From Pseudorhodoplanes sinuspersici (GTDB lineage: Bacteria; Pseudomonadota; Alphaproteobacteria; Rhizobiales; Xanthobacteraceae), in contig NZ_CP021112.1 of assembly GCF_002119765.1 (NCBI RefSeq), forward strand, positions 4,644,501-4,708,500: a stretch of DNA of 64,000 bases, in the 5' to 3' direction. Of this stretch, positions 8,736 to 64,000 are shown one piece after another. The position numbers were made by a program, and so were the translations under genes. How positions within the stretch are numbered: the stretch's first letter is position 1; every line of letters starts with the position of its first letter. Under the pieces are notes generated by a model. It was given only the letters and a program-made list of their open reading frames with translations. It was not told the DNA's origin and did no database searches.

Positions 8736-10153
8736 GATACCTCGAACCAGGTCAGTGATTCACGGGATGGTTCCGATAAGGACCGGCGTTCGATAGCCCA
8801 TTTACCGGTGAGGTCGGCGACGAACGCGATCCGCGCCGTCTGCTGCGGACCCACCAAAAGTGTGTCGAGCCAGAACGGTTTCCAGCCGTCGTCCAGATTA
8901 TCGAGCAATCGGAACGTGTGCCCGTGCACGTGGATCACGTAGGCTTGGTCACCTGGATTGGCGAAGGTCAGTACCACGGGTTGATCTTTCCTGACCGAAA
9001 ATAGAGGTGCTCCAAGAGAGCTGGAGAGCTGATCCATCGGCATCCAGGAAACGTTGGTTCCTTGGTTGTTCGTCTTTGGGTTTGAGATTTTTTTCCTCTC
9101 CACGGAGGGCTTCGCTGGCAGCGGAGCCGCACCGAGCGCAAGCTGGACGCGAAGTGCATTTCGAAGATCGATGCGCGAGGGAAGCGGGTTCTGTGGCAAG
9201 GACTTAGGGGCGCCGCGTGATCCATTGCGAGAGGCGCCGCCCTCGATCGCGAACCGTGCAATCTGAACGCTTTGTCCGCCGCCGCTGTCGATCACGATCG
9301 GCACGGTGTCGCCTACGTCCTCAGCGATATCAACAAACAGGTCGATCCGATTGCCTGGTGCAATCACGACCTGGCTGTCGCGCGCGATGAAGGGCTCGGC
9401 CGGCTGGCCGTCGATTGCCACCACCCAGGCCGTCTGGTTCGACAAACTGACCGGGAGGAGACGGTTCACGGTAGCGTTGATCAGACGAAGGCGTATTCGC
9501 TCACCTCGCCGCGCCGGAATGGCAAGGTCACGCAGACCATTGGCGGTGAAGAGGAAGTGCTGTCCTGAGGCTGCAGAACCGCCGATATCACGCAACGATC
9601 CATTGTCATCAAGATTCCAGTCGTCGAGCACCAGCAGCACGTCATGGTCGACATCGACCGGTTCGCTCTCATCGACGATCACCGGCCCGTACAAGCCGCG
9701 CGCAAGCTGGCCTGCCAGCGCCGCATGATACCAGAAGGTTCCGGCATCCTTCGCGACGAAGCGATAGTCGAAGGATTGAACGGGTGCGACGGGCAGTTGG
9801 GTCAGATAGGGCGTCCCATCCATGGCATTCGGCACGCGCAGGCCGTGCCAATGGATCGTGGTCGGTTCAGCTCCATCGTTGATCAGCCGCGCCGTGAACT
9901 CCTGGCCGCGTCTGAGGCGTACCGTCGGCCCCGGGACAGTGCCACCATAGCCCATGATATTGGTCGCAGGCTGCTGCGGTCCACGGAGTCTGACTGATCC
10001 TGCTTTCGCCCGCAATTCGGCGATAGCCTCGGCTTGGGCCATGGCCTGACTCACGGCGCGTGATCCGCCGAGGATCGTCACCGTGGCCGATAGACTGGCG
10101 GCGGACACGAACGCACGGCGGGTGAGAGATTTCTGAAAAAAGGGGACTTTCAT
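8732..10153 (-). CDS. Tat-exported multicopper-oxidase-like cupredoxin protein with degraded copper sites
   Basis: A 473-residue, three-cupredoxin protein. The Tat signal LTRRAFVSAASLSATVTILGG (10-30) shows export in folded form. The first ligand motif HWHG (101-104) is intact. The second is WYHAA (141-145), where WYHSH/WYHPH is usual. The C-terminal HPxHxHGH motif is reduced to YVIHVHGH (405-412), and the last HCHxxxH region reads AIERRSLSEPS, so the type 1 copper Cys and its His neighbours are absent. It therefore probably cannot act as a blue copper oxidase, and resembles FtsP/SufI, a structural relative without copper. The ATG at 10153 follows AGGAG; upstream in-frame starts lack one. Confidence 0.85.
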   Translation of the reverse strand: MKVPFFQKSLTRRAFVSAASLSATVTILGGSRAVSQAMAQAEAIAELRAKAGSVRLRGPQQPATNIMGYGGTVPGPTVRLRRGQEFTARLINDGAEPTTIHWHGLRVPNAMDGTPYLTQLPVAPVQSFDYRFVAKDAGTFWYHAALAGQLARGLYGPVIVDESEPVDVDHDVLLVLDDWNLDDNGSLRDIGGSAASGQHFLFTANGLRDLAIPARRGERIRLRLINATVNRLLPVSLSNQTAWVVAIDGQPAEPFIARDSQVVIAPGNRIDLFVDIAEDVGDTVPIVIDSGGGQSVQIARFAIEGGASRNGSRGAPKSLPQNPLPSRIDLRNALRVQLALGAAPLPAKPSVERKKISNPKTNNQGTNVSWMPMDQLSSSLGAPLFSVRKDQPVVLTFANPGDQAYVIHVHGHTFRLLDNLDDGWKPFWLDTLLVGPQQTARIAFVADLTGKWAIERRSLSEPSRESLTWFEVS

Positions 10154-10437: not shown

Positions 10438-11793
10438 ATGCAAGTGACCGAAACATTGTCCGACGGCTTGCGCCGCGAATTCAGCGTGGTGATTCCCGCC
10501 GGCGAGCTCGATAGCAAGGTCAGTGAGCGCCTGGATGCGATGAAGGACAAGGTCCGTATCAACGGCTTTCGTCCGGGCAAAGTGCCGACGGCACATCTGC
10601 GCCGCATGTACGGCCGCTCCGCAATGGCGGAGGCGATCGACGCAGCGATGCGCGATGTGAATTCGAAGATTGTTGCCGACAACAATTTCCGTCTGGCGAT
10701 GCAGCCGAAGGTGAACCTGCCCGAAGACGAGAAGGCGGTCGAGGACGTCATCAACGGCAAATCCGATCTCGCCTACACGGTCGAGATGGAAATTCTCGCG
10801 CCGATCGAATTGACGGATTTCAAGTCAATCGATGTTACGCGCCTCGTCACCGCAGTGAACGACGAGGAAGTCGACGAAGGCCTGAAGCGAATCGCAGATC
10901 AGAATCGTCCGTTTGCCGCGAAGGCTGAGGGTGCGAAGGCCGAGAAGGATGATCGCGTTACGATCTCGTTCGTGGGATCAATCGATGGCGTGCCGTTCGA
11001 CGGCGGTTCGGCCGACGATGTTGCCGTGAATATCGGATCGAATACCTTCATCCCAGGCTTCGAAGATCAGCTCGTCGGCATCACGGTTGGCGAGAATCGC
11101 AAGATCAACGTGACGTTCCCCGAAAACTATCCAGCCGCTCAATTGGCCGGAAAGGCGGCAGAGTTCGACGTCACTGCAAAGACGCTCGAGGCGCCGAGTG
11201 AGGTCAAGATCGACGACGAATTCGCCAAATCCTTAGGGATGGAGTCGCTCGACAAGCTGAAGGATGCCGTGCGCGAACGGATTCAGCGCGAGCACGATTC
11301 CGTGTCGAAGCAGCGCGTGAAGCGGGTGTTGTTCGACGCGCTCGACGAGCGTCACAAATTCCCGCTGCCGCCGGCTTTGGTCGAGCAGGAATTCAACAAT
11401 CTGTGGACAACGGCGACCGAAGAGCTGAAGCAGCAGGGCAGGACCTTCGAAGACGAGAACACGACCGAAGAGAAGGAGCGCGCCGAATATCAGCGCATTG
11501 CCGACCGTCGCGTTCGTCTCGGACTGCTCCTTGACGAAATCGCCCGCAGGAACAACATCAACGTGACGGACGAAGAGACGACACGCGCCATCGTGGAGCA
11601 TGTGCGGCAATATCCGGGGCGCGAGAAAGAACTTTGGGACATGTTCCGCAATAACCCGGAAGCAGTCGCCAGCATTCGTGCGCCGCTGATCGAGAACAAG
11701 GTGACGGACTTTATCCTCGCTCTTGCCAAGGTGAGCGACAAGACAGTGTCGCGCGAGGAATTGTACCGCAACGACGAAGAAGCGGCTGCTTGA
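10438..11793 (+). CDS. tig: Trigger factor
   Basis: A 451-residue ribosome-associated chaperone and peptidyl-prolyl isomerase. The N-terminal ribosome-binding domain has the signature NGFRPGKVP; the FKBP-type PPIase domain spans about 155-245 (DDRVTISFVGSIDGVPFDGG ... FIPGFEDQLVGITVGENRKINVTFPENY); the rest is the helical chaperone domain. The C-terminus is acidic (RNDEEAAA). The start ATG at 10438 (MQVTETLSDGL) is the family start; the longer in-frame reading would run through the tRNA gene. It is followed by clpP, clpX and lon on the same strand. Confidence 0.96.
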   Translation: MQVTETLSDGLRREFSVVIPAGELDSKVSERLDAMKDKVRINGFRPGKVPTAHLRRMYGRSAMAEAIDAAMRDVNSKIVADNNFRLAMQPKVNLPEDEKAVEDVINGKSDLAYTVEMEILAPIELTDFKSIDVTRLVTAVNDEEVDEGLKRIADQNRPFAAKAEGAKAEKDDRVTISFVGSIDGVPFDGGSADDVAVNIGSNTFIPGFEDQLVGITVGENRKINVTFPENYPAAQLAGKAAEFDVTAKTLEAPSEVKIDDEFAKSLGMESLDKLKDAVRERIQREHDSVSKQRVKRVLFDALDERHKFPLPPALVEQEFNNLWTTATEELKQQGRTFEDENTTEEKERAEYQRIADRRVRLGLLLDEIARRNNINVTDEETTRAIVEHVRQYPGREKELWDMFRNNPEAVASIRAPLIENKVTDFILALAKVSDKTVSREELYRNDEEAAA

Positions 11794-58062: not shown

Positions 58063-59331
58063 ATGAGCGAATCAACCGCGACCCGCCCCTTTGCGCCGTT
58101 CGAATGGCTGCTTTCGCTGCGCTATCTGCGTGCGCGGCGGAAGGAAGGCTTCATCTCGATCATCGCCGGCTTCTCGTTCCTCGGCATCATGCTGGGCGTG
58201 GCAACGCTCATCATTGTCATGGCGGTGATGAATGGGTTCCGCAAAGAATTGCTCGACAAGATCCTCGGCTTGAACGGACACCTGTTGGTGCAGCCGCTGG
58301 AGTCCCCGCTCACGGACTGGGATGCGGTGACGCAGCGGATCAGCGGCATTCCCGGCATCCGTCTTGCGACACCGATTGTCGAAGGTCAGGCGCTGGCGTC
58401 GTCGCCGTTCCATTCGACCGGCGTCCTCGTGCGTGGCATTCGCGCCGCCGACCTCGAGAAACTGACGTCGATTTCACAGAACCTGAAGCAGGGCAATCTC
58501 GACGGCTTCGACGAGGGGCAGGGCATCGTCATCGGCCGCCGGCTTGCGGACGCTTTGTCGGTCAGGGCCGGCGACAACATCACACTCGTTGCGCCACGCG
58601 GCGCTGTGACACCGATGGGAACGACGCCGCGGATCAAGGCTTACAAAGTCGCGGCTGTGTTCGAGATCGGCATGTCCGAATATGACAGCGCGTTCGTCTT
58701 CATGCCGCTTGTCGAGGCGCAGGCCTATTTCAACCGTTCCGGGGACGTGACGGCGATCGAGGTCTACCTCAACTCCGCCGATAAATATCGCGAGTTCCGC
58801 AAGCTGGTCACCGATGCCGCGCAACGGCCGATCTTCATGGTCGACTGGACTCAGCGCAATGCGACCTTCTTCAATGCGCTGCAGGTCGAGCGCAACGTGA
58901 TGTTCCTGATCCTGACGATGATCGTATTGGTCGCAGCCCTGAATATCGTGTCAGGCCTGATCATGCTGGTGAAAGACAAGGGCAGGGACATCGCGATTTT
59001 GCGCACCATGGGCGCGACGCAAGGCGCGATCATGCGCGTGTTCCTGATCACGGGCGCATCGATCGGCGTTGTTGGGACGCTGCTTGGCTTTCTGGTCGGG
59101 CTGGTGGTCTGCGCAAATATCGAATCGATACGCCAGTTCGTTTCGTGGATCACCGCGACTGAATTGTTTTCACCCGAATTGTATTTTCTGTCCCGCCTAC
59201 CGGCCGAGATCGATCCCGGCGAGACCACAGCCGTCGTGGTGATGGCTCTGGCTCTGTCGCTGCTGGCAACACTCTATCCGTCATGGCGCGCTGCCCGTCT
59301 CGATCCGGTCGAGGCGCTTCGTTATGAGTGA
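58063..59331 (+). CDS. lolC: Lipoprotein-releasing ABC transporter permease (LolC/LolE family)
   Basis: A 422-residue inner-membrane permease with the LolC/E layout: one N-terminal helix ([31 protein letters not shown]), a large periplasmic domain (about 50-275), and three C-terminal helices ([46 protein letters not shown]; the last before [18 protein letters not shown]). It takes mature lipoproteins out of the inner membrane. The ATG follows GGGAG. It overlaps lolD by eight bases. Confidence 0.95.
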
Positions 59332-60070
59332 GCCCGCCATGAACGAGCATGTCAGGACGGACGATCAGATGGCCGCAGCGCAACCCGCGCCCGGACCTGC
59401 GCTCTATCTGAATGCGGTCGAGCGACGCTATCGGCAGGGTGACAATACGCTCGAAATCTTGCGCGGGGCCGAGCTTGGCTGCTGGCTTGGCCAGTCGATC
59501 GCCCTGATCGCGCCGTCAGGCGCCGGCAAATCGACCTTCCTGCATATTGCCGGATTGCTCGAACATCCCGATGGCGGGGAGGTTTATGTCGACGGCCAGC
59601 CGACATCCTCATTGTCGGACGCAGCGCGCACGCAGATCCGCCGCACCGAAATGGGGTTTGTCTACCAGGCGCATCATCTGCTGCCGGAATTCTCGGCGGT
59701 CGAGAATGTCATGCTGCCGCAGATGATACGCGGATTGTCGCGTTCGGAATCGCATAGACGCTCGGCGGAATTGCTGACTTATCTTGGTCTGAAGGCGCGG
59801 CTCGATCATCGGCCGTCGGAATTATCGGGCGGCGAACAGCAGCGTGTTGCGATTGCCCGGGCGGTCGCCAATGCGCCGCGCATCCTTCTGGCTGACGAGC
59901 CCACTGGCAACCTCGATCCGCACACCGCAGACCACGTATTCGACACGCTCAACCAGCTCGTACGTGCGTCGGGACTGGCAGCGATCATTGCCACTCACAA
60001 TCTTGATCTTGCACGCCGCATGGACCGCCGCGTCACCATTCGCGAGGGTGTGGTCGTCGAACTCGATTGA
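59324..60070 (+). CDS. lolD: Lipoprotein-releasing ABC transporter ATP-binding protein
   Basis: A 248-residue ATPase with Walker A PSGAGKST (64-71), Q-loop [26 protein letters not shown] with the LolD-type segment, signature [14 protein letters not shown], Walker [13 protein letters not shown] and the switch His in IIATHN. It powers LolC. The start at 59324 ([10 protein letters not shown]) has GAGG upstream and overlaps the end of lolC; ATG 59339 is an alternative. Confidence 0.95.
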
Positions 60071-60216: not shown

Positions 60217-60789
60217 ATGACCGAGCCCACACCGTCTGTCGATATTGTCGGCAGAGAACTGCGTCCGCTTCCGGCACTGATCTTCGGGTCCCGCTGGCTG
60301 CAATTGCCACTTTATCTTGGGCTGATCGTCGCCCAGGGCGTTTATGTTGTCCTGTTTCTGAAAGAGCTATGGCACCTGATTTCTCACGCCACGGATTTTT
60401 CCGAGCAGCAGATCATGCTGGTGGTGCTGGGTCTGATCGACGTGGTGATGATTTCAAACCTGCTGGTGATGGTCATTGTCGGCGGCTACGAAACCTTTGT
60501 GTCGCGCCTGAAGCTGCAGGGCCATCCCGATCAGCCGGAATGGCTCAGCCACGTCAATGCCAGCGTGCTGAAGATCAAGCTGGCGATGGCGATTATCGGC
60601 ATTTCCTCCATCCATCTGCTGCGCACATTTATCGAGGCGGGCAATCTCGGCAGCGACAAGGCAAATTACACCGAGGCCGGCGTCATGTGGCAGACGATCA
60701 TCCACGTCGTTTTTATTCTGTCAGCGATCGGCATCGCCGCGGTCGACAAGATGGGCCAGAATCCGAGCGGACATTCCAAACAACATTAG
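60217..60789 (+). CDS. UPF0114 (YqhA-like) membrane protein
   Basis: A 190-residue protein with four membrane helices ([97 protein letters not shown]), matching UPF0114. The [10 protein letters not shown] and SSIHLLRTF stretches are the most conserved. The function is unknown. It lies 146 bases after lolD and is convergent with the Old Yellow Enzyme gene. Confidence 0.92.
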
Positions 60790-60807: not shown

Positions 60808-61875
60808 TTACTCGGCGGCTTCAGCGAGCGCAGGATAATCGGTGTAGCCTTCCTGATCCGGCCCATAAAAAGTCGCGCTGTTCCACGCATTGAGCGGCGC
60901 GCGTAGTGCAAACCGGCGGGGAAGATCGGGATTGGCGATGAACAGCTTGCCAAAGGCCACCGCATCGGCTTCTCCGGTGGCAAGTATCTTCTCGGCGCTT
61001 TCAAACGTGAAGCCTTCATTGGCGATATAGACACCGCCGAACGCCGCTTTCAGTTTCGGGCCCAAACGCGGCTCGGCCAAGGATTCGCGTGCGCAGATAA
61101 AAGCGATCTTCCGCTTGCCGAGCTCGCGCGCGACATAGCCGAACGTCGCCGGCAGATCGCTGTCGCTCATGTCATGGGTGTCGGCCCGCGGGGCGAGATG
61201 CGCGCCAACGCGTCCCGGACCCCAGACCGAAACTGCAGCATCGATCACTTCAAGCAGAAGCCGCGCACGATTCTCGATCGAGCCGCCATAGCGATCGGTG
61301 CGCTTGTTGCTGCCATCCTGCAGGAACTGGTCGAGCAGATAGCCGTTGGCGCCATGCACTTCGACACCGTCGAAGCCTGCCGCCTTCGCATTCTCCGCTC
61401 CCTTGCGGAAGGCCGCGACGACGCCGGCGATCTCTTCGGTCTCCAGTGCGCGCGGGGTCACATAGGGGCGCTCGGGACGCAGCAGACTCACGCGGCCCTT
61501 CGGTGCGATCGCGCTTGGTGCCTCGGGGAGGGCACCATTCAGAAAACTCGGATCGGAAATGCGGCCGACATGCCAGAGCTGCGACAGTATCCGGCCGCCA
61601 GCCTTGTGTACGGCATCGGTGATCATGCGCCAGCCGTCGATCTGTTCCTGCGACCAGATCCCGGGCGTGTGCGGATAGCCGACGCCCATCGAGGTCACCG
61701 ATGTAGCTTCGCTAATGATCATGCCGGCCGATGAGCGCTGGACGTAGTAATCGCGCATCATCTCGTTCGGGACGCGGCCAGACCCGCTGGAGCGATTGCG
61801 AGTTAGCGGCGCCATGAGGATGCGATTGGGCAGCTTCAGATCGCCGATCGCGATCGGATCGAAGAGGGTGACCAT
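60808..61875 (-). CDS. Old Yellow Enzyme family alkene reductase (NemA-like)
   Basis: A 355-residue FMN-dependent flavoprotein. Family segments are PNRILMAPLTRNRS, SQLWHVGRISDPSF, GFDGVEVHGANGYLLDQFLQDGSNKRTDRYGGSIENRARLLLEV and GEADAVAFGKLFIANPDLPRR. It reduces activated C=C bonds, N-ethylmaleimide or nitro compounds with NAD(P)H. Its start lies about 140 bases from the SOS promoter at 62013, in divergent direction. It is normally found as a single gene with an adjacent TetR/HxlR regulator; none is seen here. Confidence 0.92.
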   Translation of the reverse strand: MVTLFDPIAIGDLKLPNRILMAPLTRNRSSGSGRVPNEMMRDYYVQRSSAGMIISEATSVTSMGVGYPHTPGIWSQEQIDGWRMITDAVHKAGGRILSQLWHVGRISDPSFLNGALPEAPSAIAPKGRVSLLRPERPYVTPRALETEEIAGVVAAFRKGAENAKAAGFDGVEVHGANGYLLDQFLQDGSNKRTDRYGGSIENRARLLLEVIDAAVSVWGPGRVGAHLAPRADTHDMSDSDLPATFGYVARELGKRKIAFICARESLAEPRLGPKLKAAFGGVYIANEGFTFESAEKILATGEADAVAFGKLFIANPDLPRRFALRAPLNAWNSATFYGPDQEGYTDYPALAEAAE

Positions 61876-62012: not shown

Positions 62013-62053
62013 TTGACATAGAACGAATGCAGAACTATGTTCTCTGTACGTTC
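62013..62053 (+). promoter_or_regulatory. SOS promoter: consensus -35/-10 with two LexA boxes
   Basis: TTGACA (62013-62018) and TATGTT (62036-62041) are separated by 17 bases. GAAC-N7-GAAC (62021-62035) fills the spacer, and GTTC-N7-GTTC (62039-62053) covers the -10 and the start site. Both match exactly the alphaproteobacterial LexA operator, three bases apart. The next start codon is the 32-residue peptide at 62083. Confidence 0.88.
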
Positions 62054-62082
62054 TCCACTAGAGAAGACCAAGGGGGTCCGCC

Positions 62083-62181
62083 ATGCTACGCGCTGTTGTT
62101 GAAGAGGCCGCCGCCTTGGCTTCGTTATCGCTGTTTCTGGGAATGATCGCCATCTGGGCCCAGGTTCTGGGCGGTTTGTAA
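62083..62181 (+). CDS. SOS-controlled 32-residue membrane micro-protein (SidA-like candidate)
   Basis: A reading frame too short for usual gene finding: MLRAVVEEAAALASLSLFLG then a hydrophobic MIAIWAQVLGGL, then TAA. Residues 9-31 form one membrane helix; a short charged N-terminus precedes it. AAGGGGG lies at a good distance before the ATG. It follows directly the promoter with two LexA boxes, so it should be induced by DNA damage. Size, topology, SOS control and the place next to dnaE recall SidA, the 29-residue division inhibitor of Caulobacter that acts on FtsW/FtsI. Identity with SidA is inference. Confidence 0.75.
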   Translation: MLRAVVEEAAALASLSLFLGMIAIWAQVLGGL

Positions 62182-62459
62182 GTTGCGTCGGTTGCGTTAG
62201 CACGATGTCCATATCGTGTCCCAGTGAGTGTGCGTTTGTAGCGTCCGCGGGACGCAGTTTCGGCCGGGCCGCCGGAAAGTGTGAATGCGTTTCCTGCGCC
62301 CGGCTGCTTCTCTCTTGTTACAGAACCCAGCGGCGTGCGGTTGCTGGGGAAAACCGGTGCACATTGTAGGCTTGCCGGCTTAGGGGTAGACATCGGCAAG
62401 GGCGGTCCCCACCATCGCGTCTGACCAACAGATTTGCCGACAGATTCGCGAGGCCCTCG
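62182..62459 (+). other. Leader between the micro-protein and dnaE
   Basis: These 278 bases hold no gene I can support. Two short dyads, CACGAT/ATCGTG and GCGTCC/GGACGC, lie within the first 80 bases after the micro-protein stop and could weakly end its transcript; neither has a T-run. Whether dnaE has its own promoter here is unclear. Confidence 0.4.
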
Positions 62460-64000
62460 GTGTCGGATGCACCCTTTGTGCACCTGCATGTGCATTCTTC
62501 CTATTCGCTGCTTGAAGGCGCGCTGAAGATCGGGCGACTGGCCGATCTCGCCAAGGCCGACAAGCAGCCGGCGCTCGCCCTGACCGACACTGACAACATG
62601 TTCGGGGCGCTGGAGTTTTCCGAAAAAATGGCGTCGTCCGGCGTGCAGCCGATTGTCGGCACCTGTTTATCGATCGATTTTGGCGACCAACCCCGCGATC
62701 CCCGTAATCCCCTGCAAAACAAGACATTGCCGCGCATCGTGCTGCTTGCCGCCCGCCAGGACGGCTACCGCCGGCTGATGCGCCTGTCATCGCGAGCCTT
62801 TCTTGAGACACCGTCGAATGAGGCGCCGCATATCCATGTCTCATGGCTGGACCAGGAAACCGACGGCATCATTGCACTCACCGGAGGCGGCCTTGGCGTT
62901 CTCGACCAGGCGATTGTTGCGGGGCGTCTCGATCTGGCGCAGCAGCGCAGCGAGCAATTGCGCGTGCTGTTCGGCAACCGGCTTTATGTCGAAATCCAGC
63001 GTCACGGCCTGCCTGAGCAACGTCTGACCGAAGGCCATCTTCTGGACATTGCCTATGGACAATCGCTGCCGCTGGTCGCGACCAACGAGCCGTTCTTTGC
63101 GACACCCGACGATTACGAATCCCATGACGCGCTGATTTGCATCGCCGAAGGCCGCATCATCGCCGAGAACGAGCGGCGCAAGCTGACGCCCGAGCACTAT
63201 TTCAAAAGCCGCAAGGAGATGGCGAAGCTGTTCTCCGATCTGCCGGAGGCGATCGCCAATACCGCCGAGATCGCGCAGCGTTGCTCGTACCGTCCGCGCA
63301 AGATGAATCCGATCCTGCCGCGCTTTTCGACTGCCGAAGCCGTCGTTGCCGATGAAGCGACCGAACTGCGGCAACAGGCCGAACAGGGGCTGGAGCGGCG
63401 CATCGCCGCGCACGGGATGGCGCGCGGTTTTTCACGCGAGGATTACGCCCGCCGGCTCGACATCGAACTCGGCGTCATCGAGCGGATGAAATTCCCCGGC
63501 TACTTCCTAATCGTGTCGGACTTCATCAAATGGGCGAAGTCGCAGGACATTCCGGTTGGGCCGGGCCGCGGTTCAGGCGCTGGCTCGCTCGTTGCGTATT
63601 CGCTGACCATCACCGATCTCGATCCGATGCGGTTCGGCCTGCTGTTCGAGCGTTTCCTCAACGAGGAACGCATCTCGATGCCGGACTTCGATATCGACTT
63701 CTGCCAGGACCGCCGCGACGAGGTGATCCGCTATGTGCAGGAGCGTTACGGTCGCGATCAGGTCGCGCAGATCATCACCTTCGGTACGCTGCAGGCGCGC
63801 GGCGTGCTGCGCGACGTCGGCCGTGTGCTGGAAATGCCGTATGGCCAGGTCGACAAGCTGTGCAAGCTGGTGCCGCAGAATCCCGCCAATCCGGTCACGC
63901 TGGCGCGCGCGATCGATGACGAGCCAAAACTGCAGGCCGAACGCGACGCCAATCCTACCGTGCGTCGCGCCTTCGACATCGCCCGCAAGCTGGAAGGATT
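62460..64000 (+). CDS. dnaE: DNA polymerase III alpha subunit, partial (runs off the right edge)
   Basis: The first 513 residues of the replicative polymerase. The PHP domain opens with VHLHVHSSYSLLEGALKIGRL (His8, His10, His12) and ALTDTDNMFGALEF; the catalytic core shows GPGRGSGAGSLVAY and the metal-binding Asp409 and Asp411 in MPDFDIDF. The start is taken as GTG 62460, with GAGG seven bases upstream. The frame stays open before it back to a CTG at 62421 (encoding TNRFADRF after the first residue), which resembles some rhizobial N-termini, so an earlier non-standard start cannot be ruled out. Confidence 0.93.
   Translation, partial: MSDAPFVHLHVHSSYSLLEGALKIGRLADLAKADKQPALALTDTDNMFGALEFSEKMASSGVQPIVGTCLSIDFGDQPRDPRNPLQNKTLPRIVLLAARQDGYRRLMRLSSRAFLETPSNEAPHIHVSWLDQETDGIIALTGGGLGVLDQAIVAGRLDLAQQRSEQLRVLFGNRLYVEIQRHGLPEQRLTEGHLLDIAYGQSLPLVATNEPFFATPDDYESHDALICIAEGRIIAENERRKLTPEHYFKSRKEMAKLFSDLPEAIANTAEIAQRCSYRPRKMNPILPRFSTAEAVVADEATELRQQAEQGLERRIAAHGMARGFSREDYARRLDIELGVIERMKFPGYFLIVSDFIKWAKSQDIPVGPGRGSGAGSLVAYSLTITDLDPMRFGLLFERFLNEERISMPDFDIDFCQDRRDEVIRYVQERYGRDQVAQIITFGTLQARGVLRDVGRVLEMPYGQVDKLCKLVPQNPANPVTLARAIDDEPKLQAERDANPTVRRAFDIARKLEG

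Follow-up and report, generated by a model that had tools for sequence, protein, structure and literature searches.

A putative SidA-type membrane peptide under a tandem LexA operator upstream of dnaE in Pseudorhodoplanes sinuspersici and related alphaproteobacteria

Layout of the locus and its LexA operators

Here, we analyzed a 64,000-nucleotide (nt) stretch of the Pseudorhodoplanes sinuspersici genome (contig NZ_CP021112.1, positions 4,644,501 to 4,708,500; hereafter the window), in which a 32-codon frame precedes dnaE, the gene for the DNA polymerase III alpha subunit, by 278 nt on the same strand. Its product is a peptide of about 30 residues with one membrane helix, as predicted by a rule combining length and hydropathy under which the close relative at locus L061 scores 1.92. 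An earlier note on this DNA had proposed that the frame encodes an SOS-controlled division inhibitor resembling Caulobacter SidA, a 29-residue inner-membrane peptide that blocks division by acting on FtsW and FtsN (PMC4211646). The elements named in that note, namely a promoter, two exact LexA operators, a ribosome site, and the frame itself, were all confirmed in place (Table 1), although the promoter, described there as near-perfect, agrees with the consensus at 10 of 12 positions and is better called good.

Apart from this promoter, no second promoter-like site was found between positions 61860 and 62520, where shuffled sequences gave a mean of 0.1 sites. A terminator scan of the interval between the peptide gene and dnaE (62182-62459) detected no terminator-like site, and SOS-induced read-through from the peptide promoter into dnaE is possible. 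Purine-rich sites also precede the chosen start codons in the relatives of the peptide, such a site being one of the criteria by which starts were chosen. Searches of the peptide against the Pfam and NCBIfam models returned no match.

Table 1. Features of the peptide locus and its surroundings (window coordinates)
Feature	Position	Strand	Remarks
Sigma-70-type promoter, TTGACA-N17-TATGTT	62013-62041	+	17-nt spacer
LexA box 1, GAACGAATGCAGAAC (GTTCTGCATTCGTTC on the minus strand)	62021-62035	-	GAAC-N7-GAAC as read; within the promoter spacer; kept in relatives
LexA box 2, GTTCTCTGTACGTTC	62039-62053	+	GTTC-N7-GTTC; begins inside the -10 box
Probable ribosome-binding site, AAGGGGGT	62070-62077	+	read from the sequence; 5' of the ATG at 62083
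Gene of 32 codons for a putative SidA-type, single-helix membrane peptide, MLRAVVEEAAALASLSLFLGMIAIWAQVLGGL	62083-62181	+	stop codon at the end
dnaE (DNA polymerase III alpha subunit), 5' part	62460-63998	+	GTG start; PHP and DNA_pol3_alpha domains
LolC-like permease	58063-59331	+	named from sequence
LolD-like ATPase	59324-60070	+	named from sequence
Membrane-protein frame	60217-60789	+	between the lolD-like gene and the peptide gene
Oxidored_FMN protein	60808-61875	-	between the lolD-like gene and the peptide gene

The motif GTTC-N7-GTTC is the published LexA motif of Caulobacter, in which about 97% of the SOS promoters carry a single box (PMC12700426). Single boxes were rejected as evidence in our analysis because their frequency is at chance level both in the window (4 against 2.36 expected) and in the whole genome (161, with 163 for the reversed pattern). 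The LexA-like matches at 9057-9071 and 10995-11009 of the window lie inside long frames and were set aside. The two boxes at the peptide promoter form a single inverted unit, GAAC-N7-GAAC-N3-GTTC-N7-GTTC, which, when a gap of 0-12 bases is allowed, occurs once in the 5.97-megabase (Mb) host genome. Across a set of 198 genomes of the host's family, the tandem unit was found in 124, compared with 5 for the pattern read backwards. The unit was seen about once per genome across this family. In the host genome, a single exact box lies about 66 nt upstream of the lexA start, and recA is preceded by two exact boxes.

To avoid circularity, operator frequencies among the 60 family loci were taken from the 30 fetched by the peptide (L001-L030) alone, the remaining 30 (L031-L060) having been fetched by the tandem operator itself. 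Within 120 nt before the start codon, all 29 of the loci that were found by the peptide alone and hold dnaE carried an exact LexA box, and 26 of the 29 carried the tandem unit. With the gap between the boxes left free at 0 to 12 bases, 27 of the operator-fetched loci showed 3 bases and the other 3 showed 8, while 26 of the 30 peptide-fetched loci showed 3 bases and the other 4 had no unit in the stretch scanned. In the family loci, the bases 5' of the unit show a weak resemblance to a -35 element. Loci of the Rhizobiaceae and those of the SidA type mostly carry GAAC-N7-GAAC boxes in one direction.

The place of the peptide before dnaE and its kinship with SidA

The earlier note had staked its proposal in part on the frame and the LexA boxes being conserved upstream of dnaE in related genomes, and both are kept there. 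A match to the peptide was found in 155 of the 198 family genomes at E<=10, of which 146 fell below 1e-3 and nine were weak (E 0.3-1.7). Among the 60 family loci, dnaE lies within the stretch examined in 54, which constitute the family set; the six others were left out of it and are treated separately below. Beyond the family, we assembled a named set of 80 dnaE loci, of which 77 were used and 3 had too little upstream DNA. An exact LexA box lies within 750 nt of dnaE in 42 of these 77 loci, and in 40 of the 42 a hydrophobic frame of 24-45 residues begins within 110 nt after the box (40/77 overall). This box-plus-frame rule was satisfied by none of 1540 dinucleotide shuffles, by 1 of 77 reverse strands, by none of 74 stretches located 1.5-2.25 kilobases (kb) upstream, and by none of 76 stretches inside dnaE. 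Four loci whose related peptide does not satisfy the rule (L084, L100, L111, and L118) were added by hand, which brings the total to 44 of 77; the start at L068 was corrected by hand. Among the carriers are Bradyrhizobium, Ancylobacter, Methylobacterium, Stappia, Sinorhizobium, Rhizobium, Aureimonas, Devosia, Maricaulis, Phenylobacterium, Parvularculaceae, and Sneathiella. By the same rule, nothing was detected in the loci of Mesorhizobium, Azospirillum, and Bartonella, in the two Hyphomicrobium loci whose upstream DNA was long enough, or in the loci of Litoreibacter, Limimaricola, Celeribacter, and Planktomarina.

SidA itself is represented by the curated NCBIfam model NF033228 (div_inhib_SidA, an equivalog model with a cut-off of 35 bits), which scored above its cut-off in one of 14 control genomes, taken as Caulobacter vibrioides, and in 61 of 99 genomes of a family taken as Caulobacteraceae. 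We fetched 33 loci with matches to this model, comprising the 30 best of the family search together with L141, L142, and L146; 31 of them are above the cut-off, and L142 and L146 are below it. The statement in the earlier note that sidA adjoins dnaE in Caulobacter was borne out, as dnaE lies directly 3' in all 33 loci, with the start codon of the peptide 115-356 nt before it. An exact LexA box is present within 700 nt in 24 of the 33. In Phenylobacterium, the peptide before dnaE at L119 scores 58 bits against NF033228, and that at L123 scores 71.6 bits against a SidA profile built here.

Profile comparisons were used to connect the two groups of peptides. When 50 peptides of the window's family were compared directly with 28 SidA peptides, the alignment spanned 25 gapless columns at a probability of 56-58, and none of 300 shuffles of all columns reached its score. 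A chain through intermediates was stronger: 26 intermediates, for which the box-plus-frame rule was the sole criterion of choice, gave a probability of 91 against SidA and 96 against the window family, and both links exceeded all 200 shuffles of each type (all columns and hydrophobic columns only). The set of 30 intermediates that includes L084, L100, L111, and L118, which were added for likeness, gave the same outcome; an earlier bridge set of nine intermediates had been hand-picked for likeness. The similarity of the window family to SidA is modest and is carried by the intermediates. Family-wide conserved positions of the peptide are an acidic residue at position 8, A11, S14, F18, and W25, and among 118 distinct peptides, a set weighted towards the window family, conservation amounts to 94% for the acidic residue (D/E), 81% for A, 82% for S, 91% for F, and 64% for W. 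The conserved residues may form one interaction face.

The reach of the family was assessed with a profile, A1, built from 27 representatives of the wider family and applied at a threshold of E<=0.01. It matched in 51 of 150 genomes of the order and in 13 of 385 genomes of the class, the match adjoining dnaE in 12 of these 13, compared with a single one of the same 385 genomes for NF033228 above its cut-off, a contrast that gives the measure of the curated model's reach. Forty loci were then examined, among them that of the host genome (L235) and some from genomes already present in other sets; dnaE lies downstream in 37, and an exact box within 800 nt accompanies it in 34 of the 37. Two matches away from dnaE were set aside as probable false matches, one inside a 366-codon frame (L245) and the other without an exact box (L244). 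Judged from sequence, the gene family appears wider than the curated SidA model. The earlier note had spoken of a division inhibitor of the Rhizobiales; a presence in that order was upheld, but a confinement to it was not, with further carriers among the Caulobacterales and in a small number of other lineages.

Where the peptide is missing was examined in a sample of 30 family genomes, mostly without a peptide match, of which 24 gave a dnaE locus. At L207, a peptide is present without an exact box, and L209 and L227 have too little upstream DNA. Two loci of genus g10, L204 and L205, keep the tandem boxes and hold a strongly diverged copy of the peptide, a natural variant of structural and functional interest. 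At several peptide-less loci, the end of a LolC-like frame is located within 1 kb upstream of dnaE.

Several results weigh against a place for the window peptide in the SidA group. The peptide does not match NF033228, and the best of the relatives submitted to this model from outside the SidA group reach 13.2 bits (Ancylobacter) and 14.6 bits (Tardiphaga), compared with the cut-off of 35 bits. Against the SidA profile built here, the window peptide scores just 4.6 bits, within the range of shuffles, and homology is therefore argued through the intermediates and synteny. The direct link between the window family and SidA is borderline because its score is also reached by 15 of 300 shuffles that move hydrophobic columns only. 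At nine of the 33 loci with SidA-model matches, the 700 nt examined contain no exact box, although less than 350 nt was covered at two of the nine, and in the absence sample both box and peptide are missing within 1 kb at 19 of the 24 dnaE loci; the A1 counts given above are likewise far from universal. Substitutions at F145 and A246 of FtsW gave robust suppression of SidA (PMC4211646). FtsW itself is present in the host genome, above the cut-off of its model, which speaks for the SidA reading; numbered through the FtsW of genome G673, which has F145 and A246 as in the paper, it keeps F145 but carries Ser at position 246. Finally, single-helix peptides of such size could look alike by convergence. 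Set against these points, the peptide qualifies as SidA-type in the broad sense, in that profile homology, a place upstream of dnaE, a LexA box, and a predicted single helix of about 30 residues were all found, and it may be counted as a further peptide of the SidA kind, one invisible to curated models.

One alternative is a LexA-controlled membrane peptide with another job, for instance an SOS toxin of the TisB type, which lowers the membrane potential, or a regulator of a membrane protease. SOS peptides of other kinds are single helices as well, and the modest direct similarity to SidA leaves room for such a role. We nevertheless consider it unlikely, as the peptide has its place, size, LexA box, and conserved positions in common with SidA and is joined to it through the intermediates.

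Loci without dnaE and selection on the coding sequence

A second alternative is that the frame is a leader peptide or upstream open reading frame (uORF) that tunes the translation or transcription of dnaE, as its location on the same strand, 5' of dnaE with no terminator-like site between, would allow. In Sinorhizobium meliloti, 48 novel small open reading frames (sORFs) were found to be translated, including sORF25 in the 5'-untranslated region (5'-UTR) of dnaE1, and at least some sORFs so placed could, according to the authors, be uORFs (PMC10117765). A leader peptide would be expected always to be followed by dnaE, and this was not what we found. All six family loci without dnaE in the stretch examined, in which about 1.4-1.5 kb downstream was covered, keep the peptide and the tandem operator. 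In five of the six, the peptide is followed by a frame that we take to be NusG-like, preceded in two by a presumably SecE-like frame. These five loci, all of genus g40 (L032, L033, L034, L036, and L038), place the peptide module before the NusG-like frame rather than dnaE, whereas L031, L035, and L037 of the same genus keep dnaE after the peptide. At a further locus, L262, the peptide and an exact box stand directly after a lolD-like gene, again without dnaE in the stretch examined. These seven loci indicate that the module can exist as a unit of its own, and the operator and peptide appear to relocate together.

The spacing and the coding sequence also speak against a leader. Across 53 family loci, the distance from the start codon to dnaE varies between 208 and 889 nt, and it is the amino-acid sequence itself that is conserved. 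Among 49 distinct 32-residue sequences (out of 53; 1176 pairs), the ratio of nonsynonymous to synonymous differences (pN/pS) was 0.30 in the frame, compared with 1.10 and 2.35 in the other two frames, and we conclude that the peptide is under purifying selection. Regulation of dnaE by a leader is thus quite improbable. Although neither short frames nor single GTTC-N7-GTTC matches are rare, a chance frame in the intergenic region has next to no probability and is refuted by the conservation, namely these pN/pS values, the matches in 155 of 198 genomes, and the 40 of 77 named loci compared with 0 of 1540 shuffles.

Proposed function, evolutionary reading, and known systems

Taken together, we consider it likely that the peptide is a LexA-repressed orthologue of SidA that blocks septation after DNA damage. 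The homology, the location, and the boxes are observed features of the locus, while induction and function are extrapolated from SOS biology and from the published work on SidA. According to this proposal, LexA would occupy both boxes and cover the promoter, thereby keeping the gene silent; the double operator would hold an otherwise lethal peptide tightly off. Upon DNA damage, RecA bound to single-stranded DNA would trigger the self-cleavage of LexA and release a burst of the peptide, which would insert into the inner membrane with its amino end inside and hold the septal wall-synthesis complex FtsW/FtsI/FtsN inactive. Division would then be halted until repair is completed and LexA returns. 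Of the earlier proposal of a SidA-like SOS division inhibitor, the kinship, the place, and the LexA boxes are therefore supported, and the damage induction and division block stand as predictions.

In a broader evolutionary reading, toward which we lean with moderate confidence, SidA would not be an invention of Caulobacter but a single offshoot of an ancient checkpoint peptide of the SOS response. Such a peptide would have stood near lolCD and dnaE in the ancestor of the Caulobacterales and Hyphomicrobiales, would have been lost in some genera, and would be the main SOS division brake in many alphaproteobacteria, the tandem operator having been gained in the host's family for extra-tight control. 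The retention of the peptide in many alphaproteobacteria, unrecognized by annotation models, suggests one old shared way of halting division during DNA repair. This would set SidA within a long history and provide the Hyphomicrobiales (rhizobia, Bradyrhizobium, Methylobacterium, and their kin) with a candidate SOS division inhibitor that is roughly 30 residues long and has a predictable location. The natural variants around a common core (the acidic residue, A, S, and F) offer a comparative handle on how a helix might hold the septal synthase inactive.

In the open-access library searched, no single paper contained sidA, dnaE, and Caulobacter as whole words. Among the matches listed there, judged by titles and the beginnings of abstracts, none linked SidA to the Hyphomicrobiales or to dnaE; among the matches listed, none linked a peptide gene upstream of dnaE to SidA or the SOS response, and none named an SOS division inhibitor for the Hyphomicrobiales.

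Several known systems can be placed next to the window peptide. YneA, SosA, and SulA are likewise SOS-induced division inhibitors, belong to other lineages, and are compared here by description only; SulA acts on FtsZ. The title of one report (PMC13396833) states an interaction of YneA with FtsW. DidA of Caulobacter is also a small membrane division inhibitor at FtsW/I/N, but it is induced by DriD and not by LexA (PMC4211646), and its comparison with the window peptide is again one of description only. The S. meliloti sORF25 resembles the window peptide as a short translated frame before dnaE1, in the position seen in the window's lineage and in Sinorhizobium sp. 6-70 (L087), where a 28-residue hydrophobic frame precedes dnaE and a LexA box starts 47 nt before the frame. 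By this comparison, which is one of position and not of sequence, sORF25 and the L087-type peptide are probably the same gene; the main text of the sORF report differs in offering a uORF role and contains no reference to LexA or SOS (PMC10117765). The closest counterpart is SidA, which shares with the window peptide the location directly upstream of dnaE on the same strand, a LexA-type box (24 of 33 loci), a length of about 30 residues with one helix, and the gapless 25-column profile alignment that becomes stronger through the intermediates. The two differ in that the SidA peptides of the loci examined carry an FVWM motif, which is absent from the window peptide, where the sequence reads EEAAALASLSLFLGMIAIWAQ, and in that the window peptide has two boxes in an inverted unit, whereas SidA loci with boxes have one, or two in the same direction.
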